From: Verrucomicrobiia bacterium
Lineage (GTDB): Bacteria > Verrucomicrobiota > Verrucomicrobiia > Limisphaerales > UBA11358
Reading direction: 5' to 3'
DNA: 60,237 nucleotides
Assembly: GCA_025451535.1 (NCBI GenBank)
Contig: JANWKE010000076.1
Span: 1 to 60,237, forward strand
In this document: positions 4,722 through 42,987 of the stretch, one piece after another
Layout: every line of letters starts with the position of its first letter
Position numbering within the stretch: position 1 is the stretch's first letter
Position numbers and translations under genes: made by a program
The notes under the pieces: generated by a model
Told to the model about the DNA's origin: nothing
Seen by the model: only the letters and a program-made list of their open reading frames with translations
The model's database searches: none

Positions 4722-4801
4722 CGGAGGGGCGAGTTACACGAGCTCCCTTTTATACGAACCGAGTTCACGTCGAACAGGGACTCGTATAACTCGTCCCTCC
4801 G
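4722..4801. repeat. Palindromic repeat, intergenic copy of the family also found in prmC and hisC
   Basis: This 80-bp imperfect inverted repeat begins CGGAGGGGCGAGTTACACG and ends with GGGACTCG..AACTCG.CCCTCCG. It lies between uppP and the LysM gene, which converge here, so it could also act as a transcriptional hairpin. Two related copies, 70 and 66 bp, lie inside coding genes at 32906-32975 and 42155-42220. Confidence 0.85.
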
Positions 4802-6099: not shown

Positions 6100-6285
6100 T
6101 GTCCCGCGTTGTTTGCTCCGGAGGAGCAACGGAAATTAGCCAGCCACGAAGTGGCTGGAACACACGCCCAATAATTTCGCGTCCTGAAAGGACGTTGGGG
6201 ATATTGTCCTTCCGCCGTCCCTTCCGGGACGGATTATTTTTGGACAAACACCAGCCACTTCGTGGCTGGCTAATATCCGATGTCG
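6100..6285. repeat. Composite palindromic repeat (nested hairpins)
   Basis: The 326-bp gap between the TPR lipoprotein and the MFS gene holds no credible gene. It contains a 24-bp perfect inverted repeat (arms at 6135-6158 and 6251-6274, core CAGCCACGAAGTGGCTG). Each arm is itself a hairpin. Between the arms are two more short hairpins, GTCCTGAAAGGAC and GTCCCTTCCGGGAC. The architecture suggests a mobile or structured-RNA repeat unit. Confidence 0.75.
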
Positions 6286-32299: not shown

Positions 32300-32403
32300 C
32301 ATTCAACCACGGATTGACACAGATGGGCACGGATAAAAAAATGGGTGACAGAAAGCCCGTGTAAAATCTGTGTTTATGCGTATTCATCTGCGGTAAATTA
32401 TTT
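32300..32403. repeat. Intergenic repeat between prmC and murA
   Basis: The 110-bp spacer holds imperfect repeats of the type CACGGATTGACACAGATGGG and its inverse (ACACAGATTTTAC; CAGATGAATACGCATAAAC on the other strand). No gene is visible. Similar low-copy repeat DNA is common between genes of this lineage. Confidence 0.45.
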
Positions 32404-33309
32404 TCAGCGTCGCACGATCAAAACTCTGGCGCGGTGAGAGTAGTCCTCCTTCACCGCCTCGACAATCCACTTTTCGGCTTCAAAAATTCTCTGGATGGCC
32501 CCCGCCTGGCCGTCACCGAATTCCAGCATGAGCCTGCCCTCCGGTTTCAAAAACGGTTTTGCTTGCACCGAGAACATCCGATAAAAATCCAGGCCATCGT
32601 CGCCGCCGTCCAGGGCCATGGGCGGATCGAAATCCCGTACCTCCGGCTGAAGCGTGGCGATTTCGGCAGATGGAATGTAGGGCGGATTGCTGATAATCAA
32701 ATCATAGCTCACCTCAACCGGAATTGCTGCCAACCCGTCACCCTGCAAAAATTCAATCCGGCCGGCCACATGGTTGCGCGCAGCATTTTCCCTGGCCAAC
32801 GCCAGCGCGTCCACTGAAACATCTGTGGCTGTGATTTTCGTCTCCGGGCATTTCACTGCCAGGGCGATGGCGATGCAACCGGTGCCGGTGCCGAAATCCA
32901 AAGCCCGGAGGGGCGAGCTCTGCGAGCCCCCATCGTCCCCGGGGGGTTCCGGGACTCGTGCAACTCGCCCCTCCGAAAGTTCATTAAGGAACTGCCAGCC
33001 CGCTTCGGCGAGCAATTCCGTTTCCGGCCGCGGAATGAGCGCTTGGCGGTTCACGGCAATGTCCGGTCCACAAAACGAGATGGAACCGGTGATGTGTTGA
33101 AGCGGTTCGCGTTGGCCACGGCGCTTGATGAATTCGCGCAGCGCGTCCGTTTCCGCCGTCGTGAGCGCGCGTTCGAAGTTCAGATACAATTTCATGCGCG
33201 GCATTTTCAGCAGATGCGCAAGCAGCAGCTCGGTTTGCAGGCGCGGCGAGTCAACGCCTTTTTTGCCCAGAAAATCCGCGCTTTTCTGAATCGCTTCGAG
33301 GACCGTCAC
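32404..33309 (-). CDS. prmC: Peptide chain release factor glutamine methyltransferase, with inserted peptide
   Basis: PrmC methylates the Gln of the GGQ motif in release factors. The 301-residue protein has the helical N-terminal domain, IPRPETELLAE, the SAM site ALDFGTGTGCIAIAL and the catalytic NPPY (ISNPPYIPSAE). Residues about 112-136 (SEGRVARVPEPPGDDGGSQS and following) between the N-terminal domain and the SAM site are encoded by a palindromic repeat and have no counterpart in the family. The active-site parts are intact, so the enzyme may tolerate the insertion. Confidence 0.93.
   Translation of the reverse strand: MTVLEAIQKSADFLGKKGVDSPRLQTELLLAHLLKMPRMKLYLNFERALTTAETDALREFIKRRGQREPLQHITGSISFCGPDIAVNRQALIPRPETELLAEAGWQFLNELSEGRVARVPEPPGDDGGSQSSPLRALDFGTGTGCIAIALAVKCPETKITATDVSVDALALARENAARNHVAGRIEFLQGDGLAAIPVEVSYDLIISNPPYIPSAEIATLQPEVRDFDPPMALDGGDDGLDFYRMFSVQAKPFLKPEGRLMLEFGDGQAGAIQRIFEAEKWIVEAVKEDYSHRARVLIVRR
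32906..32975. repeat. Palindromic repeat inserted in prmC
   Basis: This 70-bp imperfect palindrome has ends CGGAGGGGCGAG and CTCGCCCCTCCG. Read on the coding (minus) strand it gives EGRVARVP.., the same phase used by the copy in hisC. A third copy lies between genes at 4722-4801. Confidence 0.88.
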
Positions 33310-40549: not shown

Positions 40550-41845
40550 ATGAAAGTGATTCGCCACACCGACGCGAATTTTGCCGGCCAACTCCGCGAA
40601 TTGACGGCCGCCTCCAGCCTGTTCGACCCCGGGATCGAACAGCGTACCCGCGCCATCCTGCACGACATTTTCGTGCGCGGCGACGACGCCTTGCTGGAAT
40701 TCACGGAAAAATATGACGGCGCGAAGCTGACCGCCGAACAACTTGCCGTGACGCAGGCCGAACTCATGACCGCGTCGCTCAAGGCTGATGAATCGCTGCG
40801 CCAGGCCGTGGCCGCAGCGGAGAAAAACATCGCTGTGTTTGCCAAAAAGTCGTTGCGCAAGAACTGGCAGACAAAGAATTCGCACGGGGCCAGTGTGGGT
40901 GAGAAATTCGATCCTTTCCAACAGGTGGGCATTTACATTCCCGGCGGTACCGCGCCGTTGGTTTCAACGGCCCTCATGACCATTACGCTGGCGAAGGTTG
41001 CGGGCTGCCCCGAAATCGCCGTCTGCACGCCGTGTGGCAAGGATGGCTCGATCAATCCCGCTTTGTTGTTCGCAGCGCGGGCGGCTGGCGCAACAGAAAT
41101 TTACCGCGCCGGCGGTGCCCAGGCGATCGCGGCGCTGGCTTATGGCACGAACACCATCCGCCGGGTCCAGAAGATTTTCGGCCCCGGCAACGCCTATGTC
41201 GTCGCCGCCAAGCGCCTGCTGGTCGGCCACGTGGCGATTGATTTGTTACCTGGCCCGAGCGAACTGCTGGTACTCGCGGATGACACGGCCAATCCGAAGT
41301 TCATCGCGGCCGACCTGCTGGCACAAGCCGAACACGGTTCTGGTCACGAACGCGTCTGGCTGGTCACAAACTCGGTGAAAATTTTGAAGACCGTCGAGAG
41401 TGAAATCGCCAAACAATCGCCCAGGCTCGCGCGGCGCGAATTCGTCCGGCGCGCCCTGCAGCACAACGGCTGGCTGGTGCAGGTGAAGTCACTCGACGAC
41501 GGTGTGGCGTTGGCCAACCGGCTCGCGCCGGAGCATTGCGAAGTGATGACGCGCAATCCACGCAAGGTTTCCAAGGGCATCCTGACGGCGGGGGCAATTT
41601 TCCTTGGTCCCTGGTCGCCGACGGTGCTCGGCGATTACGTGGCCGGGCCGAGCCACACGCTGCCGACCGGCGGCGCGGGGGCATCCTTTGCCGGCCTGAC
41701 CGTGGACCAGTTCCAGCGCCGGACCAGCGTGGTGGAGTACAATCGTGCCTCGCTCAAAAAAGCGCTGTCCGCGGTGAAAAAGTTCGCCGAACTGGAAGGT
41801 CTGGGCGCGCACGGACGCTCTGCTGAGATTCGTTCTGCAAAATGA
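40550..41845 (+). CDS. hisD: Histidinol dehydrogenase
   Basis: HisD performs the last two oxidations of histidine synthesis, from histidinol to histidine. The 431-residue protein keeps the zinc and catalytic residues: Gln and His in LLAQAEHGSGHERVWL, Glu-His in APEHCEVM, and His in GLGAHGRSAEIR. ATG 40550 begins MKVIRHTDANF; the frame is open further upstream without homology. It overlaps hisC by 4 bp. Confidence 0.96.
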   Translation: MKVIRHTDANFAGQLRELTAASSLFDPGIEQRTRAILHDIFVRGDDALLEFTEKYDGAKLTAEQLAVTQAELMTASLKADESLRQAVAAAEKNIAVFAKKSLRKNWQTKNSHGASVGEKFDPFQQVGIYIPGGTAPLVSTALMTITLAKVAGCPEIAVCTPCGKDGSINPALLFAARAAGATEIYRAGGAQAIAALAYGTNTIRRVQKIFGPGNAYVVAAKRLLVGHVAIDLLPGPSELLVLADDTANPKFIAADLLAQAEHGSGHERVWLVTNSVKILKTVESEIAKQSPRLARREFVRRALQHNGWLVQVKSLDDGVALANRLAPEHCEVMTRNPRKVSKGILTAGAIFLGPWSPTVLGDYVAGPSHTLPTGGAGASFAGLTVDQFQRRTSVVEYNRASLKKALSAVKKFAELEGLGAHGRSAEIRSAK

Positions 41846-42987
41846 CAAATCCGAAACGATTGATCCGCCCGCTGGTGCGCGAGTTGCACCCTTATGTTTA
41901 CGGCGAGCAGCCAAAAATCAAGGGGCTGATCAAACTGAACACCAATGAAAATCCGTATCCGCCATCACCAAAGGTGCTGGCGGCGGTCAAAGCGGCGGTG
42001 GACGGGCGGTTGCGGCTGTATCCGAACCCGACGGCGCAACCGCTTCGCGAAAAACTCGCGAAATGGCACGGCTGTCACGCGGACAATATCATCGTCGGCA
42101 ATGGGTCAGATGAATTATTGGCCCTGGCAACCCGAGCGTTTGTGGAGCCGGTTCCGGAGGGGCGAGTTATACGAGTCCCAAACCATAAGAAGTCAGGGAC
42201 TCGCGGAGCTCGCCCCTCCGAAACGGTTCAATATTTCACGCCGAGTTATTCATTATATCCGGTGCTGGCGGACATTCATGGCGCAGCAAAAAACCCCGTG
42301 CCGCTCAAGCCGGATTTCAGCCTGCCGGGCGTGGTCGAATTGAAACGTGACGAAATCTGGAAATTCGACGCGGCGCTGACTTATGTAACGACTCCAAATG
42401 CACCGAGCGGGCGCGGTTACCAGACGCCCGAGCTGGAGAAACTGTGTCGGGCCCAAAAGGGCGTGGTTATTCTTGACGAGGCTTACGTGGATTTTGCGGA
42501 AGAAAACGCGATGAAACTGGCGTTGAAATATCCGCACGTCATCGTGGCGCGGACGTTTTCCAAGGCCTACTCGCTCTGTTTCCAGCGCGTCGGTTATTTG
42601 GTCGGCCACTGCTGCCTGGTTGCCGCCCTGCATAAAATCCGCGACAGCTACAACGTGAACGGTCTGGGCCAGATTGGCGCCGTGGCGACGCTGGGCGATT
42701 TGAAATACTACCGAGCCAACTTCAAAAAAATCACCGCTACGCGCGAGTGGTTGAGCCGGGAGTTGACGAAGCTCGGCTTTCGGGTTTTCCCGAGCCAGGC
42801 AAATTTCATTCTCGTCCAGCCGTTGCGTTTCACCGCGCATGAATGGCAACACAAGTTGCGAGCGCAACAAGTCCTTGTCCGGTGGTTCAGCTTCCCGGAG
42901 GTAAAAGACTGTCTGCGTGTCACAATCGGGGCGCCGGCCGAGGCGGCAGCCCTGGTCGGCGCGGTGCGAAGAACCCTGCACGATTAG
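41842..42987 (+). CDS. hisC: Histidinol-phosphate aminotransferase, with inserted peptide
   Basis: HisC uses PLP to make histidinol phosphate. The 381-residue protein has NTNENPYPPSP, the aspartate region ILDEAYVDFAE and the PLP lysine in RTFSKAYSL. Residues about 105-127 (PEGRVIRVPNHKKSGTRGAR PSE) are encoded by a palindromic repeat and split the normal run from RAFVEP to TVQYFTPSYSLYP. Core residues are intact. It is translationally coupled to hisD by an ATGA overlap. Confidence 0.95.
   Translation: MTNPKRLIRPLVRELHPYVYGEQPKIKGLIKLNTNENPYPPSPKVLAAVKAAVDGRLRLYPNPTAQPLREKLAKWHGCHADNIIVGNGSDELLALATRAFVEPVPEGRVIRVPNHKKSGTRGARPSETVQYFTPSYSLYPVLADIHGAAKNPVPLKPDFSLPGVVELKRDEIWKFDAALTYVTTPNAPSGRGYQTPELEKLCRAQKGVVILDEAYVDFAEENAMKLALKYPHVIVARTFSKAYSLCFQRVGYLVGHCCLVAALHKIRDSYNVNGLGQIGAVATLGDLKYYRANFKKITATREWLSRELTKLGFRVFPSQANFILVQPLRFTAHEWQHKLRAQQVLVRWFSFPEVKDCLRVTIGAPAEAAALVGAVRRTLHD
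42155..42220. repeat. Palindromic repeat inserted in hisC
   Basis: This 66-bp palindrome has ends CGGAGGGGCGAG and CTCGCCCCTCCG. The reading phase (EGRVIRVP) is identical to that of the copy in prmC. No stop codon occurs in the phase used. Confidence 0.9.

Follow-up and report, generated by a model that had tools for sequence, protein, structure and literature searches.

In-frame REP-like doublets in prmC and other genes of a Limisphaerales-like bacterium, and a candidate partner RAYT

The palindrome within prmC

The window, meaning the whole stretch of 60,237 nucleotides that was analysed (contig JANWKE010000076.1 of a Verrucomicrobiia bacterium), contains three copies of a palindromic repeat, termed here family A, two of which lie inside protein genes.

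32404..33309, minus strand: prmC, encoding a release factor glutamine methyltransferase of 301 aa that includes the in-frame insert; TIGR03534 match of 256 bits (cut-off 199)
32906..32975, no strand assigned: family A element (putative REP doublet) of 70 bp in prmC, encoding PrmC residues 112-135 in an uninterrupted open reading frame
32906..32930, plus strand: arm 1 of this element, 25 nt, GCTCTGC subtype, 0 mismatches to the arm consensus
32951..32975, minus strand: arm 2, inverted, 25 nt, TTGCAC subtype, 0 mismatches to the arm consensus
41827..42984, plus strand: hisC open frame, 386 codons from stop to stop; TIGR01141 match of 292 bits (cut-off 277), with an Aminotran_1_2 match at 34-377 that spans the insert
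42155..42220, no strand assigned: family A doublet of 66 bp, the second in the window, lying in frame within hisC
4722..4801, no strand assigned: third family A doublet (80 bp), in the intergenic stretch that separates a LysM gene from a BacA-family gene

The arms of the prmC palindrome are 80% complementary and are separated by a 20-nt spacer, with an exact CGGAGGGGCGAG at either end. A first-pass annotation had placed at these positions a palindrome adding about 25 residues (112-136) between the N-terminal and SAM domains of PrmC. The coordinates and the frame, which has no stop on the minus strand within the palindrome, were borne out, the TIGR03534 match supports the identity of the gene, and the PrmC_N and methyltransferase domains were found by Pfam on either side of the insert. 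The encoded peptide, SEGRVARVPEPPGDDGGSQSSPLR, is however 24 residues long and corresponds to residues 112-135. In an AlphaFold model of PrmC with an overall pLDDT of 95.9, the insert is a coil between a helix (95-112) and a strand (135-139), with pLDDT falling from 90 in residues 111-120 to 76 in residues 121-130. It is thus predicted to be a lower-confidence coil within an otherwise confident structure. An Rfam scan of the window returned nothing at gathering scores. A sequence similar to another dispersed intergenic repeat, of type 'aatccgtgttcatccgtggttaa', is present near positions 32300-32400 of the window, and single arms adjoin the same type of sequence elsewhere in the genome (L079:2047-2071 and L079:6797-6821).

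Family A copies in the genome and their host genes

We searched the source genome (G000), a 4.4-Mb metagenome-assembled genome (MAG) of 188 contigs that is 97.89% complete with 4.76% contamination. Its Limisphaerales-like placement follows from named relatives, which are MAGs of Limisphaerales and of Verrucomicrobia subdivision 3. The 25-nt arm pattern, allowing at most 3 mismatches, matched 86 times, against 2 matches for the reversed control, which excludes a chance origin. From about 2 kb fetched on either side of the arm sites (less at contig ends), 54 family A elements were resolved, of which 41 are two-armed with at most 5 mismatches per arm. The placement of copies in hisC and between genes, and the expectation of further copies across the genome, proved right: 23 elements lie in frame within recognised genes, 20 are intergenic, 5 are at gene starts, 4 are ambiguous and 2 are at a RAYT gene. 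These placements rest on Pfam scans of 40 element-spanning open frames, mostly the longest, and on an NCBIfam scan of ten frames, nine of which span elements. The 20 intergenic calls were made from the positions of flanking frames, with a Pfam-matched neighbour in 11 and frames alone in 9. The 5 elements at gene starts may be untranslated, and the ambiguous ones comprise three in frames without a Pfam match (L052, L072, L092) and one in xseA at a contig edge (L051).

The 23 host genes encode PrmC, HisC, HpnH, KsgA, a DsbH-type protein, HemL, a polyketide synthase, LigA, ValS, an AMP ligase, a class III aminotransferase, a DpnI-like protein, an ABC-F protein, HrpB, GlnE, PurM, CstA, MetH, ArgS, GcpE, an HpnG-like phosphorylase, HypF and MutY. 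Matched domains span the element or flank it on both sides in 19 of them; HemL and GlnE have additional, unplaced matched stretches, and the domain match is upstream of the element only in the DsbH-type protein and CstA. Only one recognisable arm is present in HpnH, ABC-F and HrpB (3 of 23). Several inserts fall within a single Pfam domain, not between two. Comparison with solved relatives places inserts in variable stretches, such as the zinc-finger region of LigA, and the KsgA insert falls between two conserved blocks.

An insert of this kind could be absent from the protein if it were excised from the RNA or bypassed during translation. The prmC element folds as a strong RNA hairpin (-43.8 kcal/mol), with a modest gain over shuffled sequences (z -1.83), as such removal would have it. 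Against this, the frames are open through all 23 in-gene copies, which use all three phases (9, 9 and 5 of 23), and skipping would not require an open frame. Nor were frame-broken host genes found: eight same-strand pairs of frames around elements without a convincing spanning gene were scanned, one of them (L055) having a right frame without a Pfam match, and none of the 7 informative pairs represented halves of one gene. We regard removal or skipping as extremely improbable. Most likely, the inserted residues are translated and form exposed loops that the proteins tolerate rather than put to use.

Arm structure and a probable partner RAYT

Base pairing within the arms was examined in 95 arms. 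Positions 8 and 22 are occupied by A-T in 39, G-C in 22, G-T in 16 and C-G in 10, positions 13 and 17 by T-A in 55 and C-G in 35, and a tandem G.A mismatch is conserved. This pattern of compensatory changes argues that each arm is itself a hairpin. The stem is preceded by a CGGA head, which is none of the heads of the GTAG superfamily (GTAG, GYAG, GYRG, GTRG, GTMG, GTGG; PMC3733652), and the arm consensus does not end in a CGTC tag. The base adjoining the element is T in 83% and C in 17% of 82 ends. Exact flanking repeats of 2-8 nt, as would be left by target duplication, occur in 0 to 1 of the 41 dimers, about the level of shuffled sequences.

Reading the open frame between two widely spaced arms, rather than searching with PF01797, located a putative partner gene on contig C78 of the same genome (locus L054):

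L054:2028-2052, plus strand: family A arm
L054:2063-2554, minus strand: putative RAYT frame, 163 aa
L054:2615-2639, minus strand: family A arm

Measured between the outer ends of the two arms, the unit is 612 bp long. The encoded protein matches NF047646 (REP_Tyr_transpos) with an E-value of 6.7e-21 and 74.7 bits, below the cut-off of 80, and PF01797 with an E-value of 0.041 only. The unit is bracketed (about 1980-2027 and 2699-2750) by sequence that nearly duplicates, with some percent divergence, the 3' end of a hemN-like gene. On the same locus, an oxidase-like frame (L054:265-1683, minus strand) contains an odd VEGRVGSPLPGAGVHGVTRPAA stretch; it may be a decayed insert, since an amine oxidase of the related genome G006 (L372) harbors an in-frame family A element.

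Three strong PF01797 matches (L043, L044, L045) were considered as the partner and rejected, as none has a family A arm within 1.5 kb on either side. Each of these RAYTs lies between its own distinct palindromes, so several REP/RAYT systems coexist in the genome. An inverted pair in the window at 6127-6158 and 6251-6282, with arms like CCAGCCACTTCGTGGCTGGCTAATAT, resembles the palindromes beside the L045 RAYT (1287-1318 and 1975-2006), which suggests that the window also contains a second REP/RAYT family.

Six RAYT loci with 66-100% identity to the L054 protein were found in 5 of 49 genomes, one of them (G006:C83) with an internal stop. Family A-type arms adjoin all six, on both sides in five and on one side in G031, where the contig ends; the arms of G008 are a subtype with 4 mismatches. 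By contrast, none of the 24 less similar RAYTs inspected, from 32 such matches in total, had a family A arm within 300 bp. Genomes with a close RAYT contain 84, 74, 38, 8 and 2 arms against a median of 0 in the 44 others (Mann-Whitney p 0.001, genome relatedness ignored). The highest arm numbers are 84 in G000, 74 in G006, 55 in G003, 49 in G010 and 38 in G036, the remaining genomes having 0 to 16. No close RAYT was found in the copy-rich G003 (92% complete) and G010 (84% complete), where the best matches are 43% and 33% identical. The arms beside the gene suggest that the L054 RAYT moves family A.

These observations bear on the type of element. RAYT genes are described as always flanked by two inverted REPs, and REPINs as REP doublets that form hairpins and were studied in extragenic space (PMC2817692 and PMC3116915, respectively). 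Family A resembles such systems in its inverted hairpin REPs separated by a spacer, in the RAYT between inverted copies and in a copy number that varies among related genomes (PMC3116915, PMC2817692 and PMC3733652). It differs in its CGGA head, in place of GTAG or GTGG, in its Limisphaerales-like host, and in having 23 of 54 copies in genes instead of extragenic space. The label 'predominantly extragenic' does not fit a family with 20 of 54 elements intergenic, but that trait is descriptive rather than mechanistic.

Inverted ends separated by a spacer that varies in length would also fit a miniature inverted-repeat element (MITE) whose terminal inverted repeats are used by a DDE transposase to move it. 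Speaking against it, target-site duplication is absent and each arm is itself a covarying hairpin; moreover, the sole gene found between widely spaced arms encodes a putative tyrosine transposase, and absence of larger duplications is a property of the IS200/IS605 family (PMC2817692). A MITE is therefore hardly a credible alternative.

Rickettsia palindromic elements (RPEs) are in-frame palindromic insertions in protein genes. The parallel with Rickettsia drawn in the first-pass annotation stands in part, because family A is also palindromic and in frame in protein genes, but its structure and partner gene point to a REP doublet of a RAYT. A selfish palindrome of the RPE type with another mover would show the same visible behaviour, with tens of base pairs of palindrome in frame in many genes and a loop in one model, and would suit the copy-rich G003 and G010 without a close RAYT. 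It is at odds with the finding, in 5 genomes, of a RAYT next to family A-type arms. The intragenic repeats of R. conorii are identified in PMC3733652 as RPE-4 and RPE-6 within the CGTC repeats, apparently without a dedicated or known transposase, which sets them apart from family A with its RAYT. We consider an RPE-type origin very unlikely. The 70-bp palindrome is instead very probably a REP doublet (REPIN) copied by its cognate RAYT, with the in-gene copies translated and tolerated as loops.

Recurrent insertion sites in related genomes

PrmC was compared in 44 of the 49 genomes of the same family group, and clades with inserts were counted on a PrmC plus MurA tree. At site 1, before the methyltransferase domain, at least 17 residues are present in 15 of 44 genomes from 10 separate clades; at site 2, before the NPPY motif, at least 15 residues are present in 14 of 44 genomes from 12 clades. 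The suggestion that relatives would show a precise gap is only a partial picture: of 45 distinct sequences, 24 have a linker of 7-10 aa at site 1, but at least 17 residues are found there in 14 of the 43 other genomes. Family A occupies site 1 in G000 and G006, and site 2 in G010, G015 and G036, as well as in G011 by its peptide; site 2 is empty in G000. The other inserts include unrelated palindromes, most long inserts but not all being palindromic. G017 has related palindrome copies at both sites. In the sister genome G010, site 1 holds a different palindrome whose arm pattern has 86 matches in that genome against 0 for the control.

KsgA and HisC, compared in 30 genomes each, also have a site common to family A and unrelated palindromes, along with many non-palindromic linkers, and G000 and its sister genome G010 have a hisC insert of one family in the same place. 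Palindrome scores above the 99th percentile were obtained for 11 of 15 long linkers at PrmC site 1, 10 of 14 at site 2, 6 of 18 in KsgA, where most fall below, and 5 of 11 in HisC, relative to 170 coding stretches of 75 nt from prmC genes whose lengths are not exactly matched. The share of genes with a common site is a biased estimate, since PrmC, KsgA and HisC were chosen for the G000 element there. Non-palindromic HisC linkers (for example L338, L335 and L341) are often short tandem repeats of TCAAAAT or TCAACCC units, and such repeats appear to be a second source of HisC linker variation.

In G006 we sampled 19 sites, taken from the first 20 exact arm matches listed outside PrmC, plus the stretch beside the RAYT. 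This gave 21 elements. Scans of 15 spanning frames placed four of them across or between matched domains, in an aminotransferase, LpxB, HypF and MetH, and two more in GcpE and the amine oxidase, where additional matched stretches are unplaced. A DpnI-like gene, an Mfd-like helicase near its C-terminus and a LuxE-like gene near its start are possible further cases. The elements in HypF, MetH and GcpE are at about the same positions in G006 and G000, consistent with either common descent or repeated landing.

The recurrence could also mean that inserts are under selection because they are useful, whether by providing new flexible linkers or by forming mRNA hairpins at which translation slows between domains. 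Unrelated palindromes found repeatedly in the same linkers, and the hisC insert common to G000 and G010 in family and position, are in keeping with this. Loop tolerance alone accounts for the recurrence, however, and sequences vary between families and spacers, many relatives have no insert at all, and several inserts lie within Pfam domains. Selection for function is accordingly rated as distinctly unlikely.

Under the preferred reading, the palindrome would be a non-autonomous mobile element made of two inverted hairpin REP arms and a variable spacer. The RAYT would copy the doublet, probably via single-stranded DNA and without target duplication, and the new copy would land beside a pyrimidine. 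In-gene copies would persist in linkers or surface loops, provided that the net change preserves frame and fold, and translation would add a loop of roughly 20-25 residues, which in PrmC would join the N-terminal helical domain to the methyltransferase domain. The length of in-gene dimers modulo 3 is 0, 1 and 2 in 3, 9 and 8 of 20, which does not support a constant net insertion length; frame keeping must hence depend on spacers of variable length, on small changes in the flanks or on imprecise ends. By hand arithmetic, with the empty linker taken as 6 aa, the net insertion in KsgA of G000 and G036 is the element length plus 1 nt (although other KsgA linkers have 13 aa), and at PrmC site 2 it is the element length minus 1 or 7 nt.

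In-frame REPs within genes are already known, including in the verrucomicrobium Opitutus terrae. According to PMC3733652, REPs occur inside ORFs, over half as dimers or groups that encode 20-30 residues, and for GTAG repeats most of these cases are in O. terrae, where some genes have two insertions. The O. terrae repeats share with family A the phylum, REP dimers in ORFs, genes hit twice and a DNA ligase host, but belong to another genus and are another repeat. The same source reports a single pair of different REPs at about the same site, in recB of two Xanthomonas species; here, several families recur at shared linkers of the three genes tested. No paper on Limisphaerales repeats was found by title or abstract start in the open-access literature searched. 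Since REPs in ORFs are published, family A is a known sort of element, distinguished by its non-GTAG head, by the large share of copies in genes and by linkers that several families use repeatedly. What looks new, from the sequences compared, is the recurrence of unrelated palindromes at the same linkers in PrmC, KsgA and HisC of relatives, and a single PrmC insert is less striking than this sharing of linkers across related species.

A palindrome that invades genes and is tied to a likely transposase would open in-gene REP insertion to experiment, and the shared PrmC, KsgA and HisC linkers are a natural record of enzyme loops that tolerate roughly 20-25 extra residues. For annotation, the finding advises caution, as odd inserts of 20-30 residues in housekeeping enzymes can derive from transposons. 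A broader reading, which we think improbable but worth stating, is that, in this verrucomicrobial clade, a number of independent REP/RAYT systems have settled time and again in the same inter-domain or loop positions of essential enzymes, with some inserts kept through speciation and maybe useful. If this were true, genome parasites would be a main source of new in-frame protein linkers in the clade.
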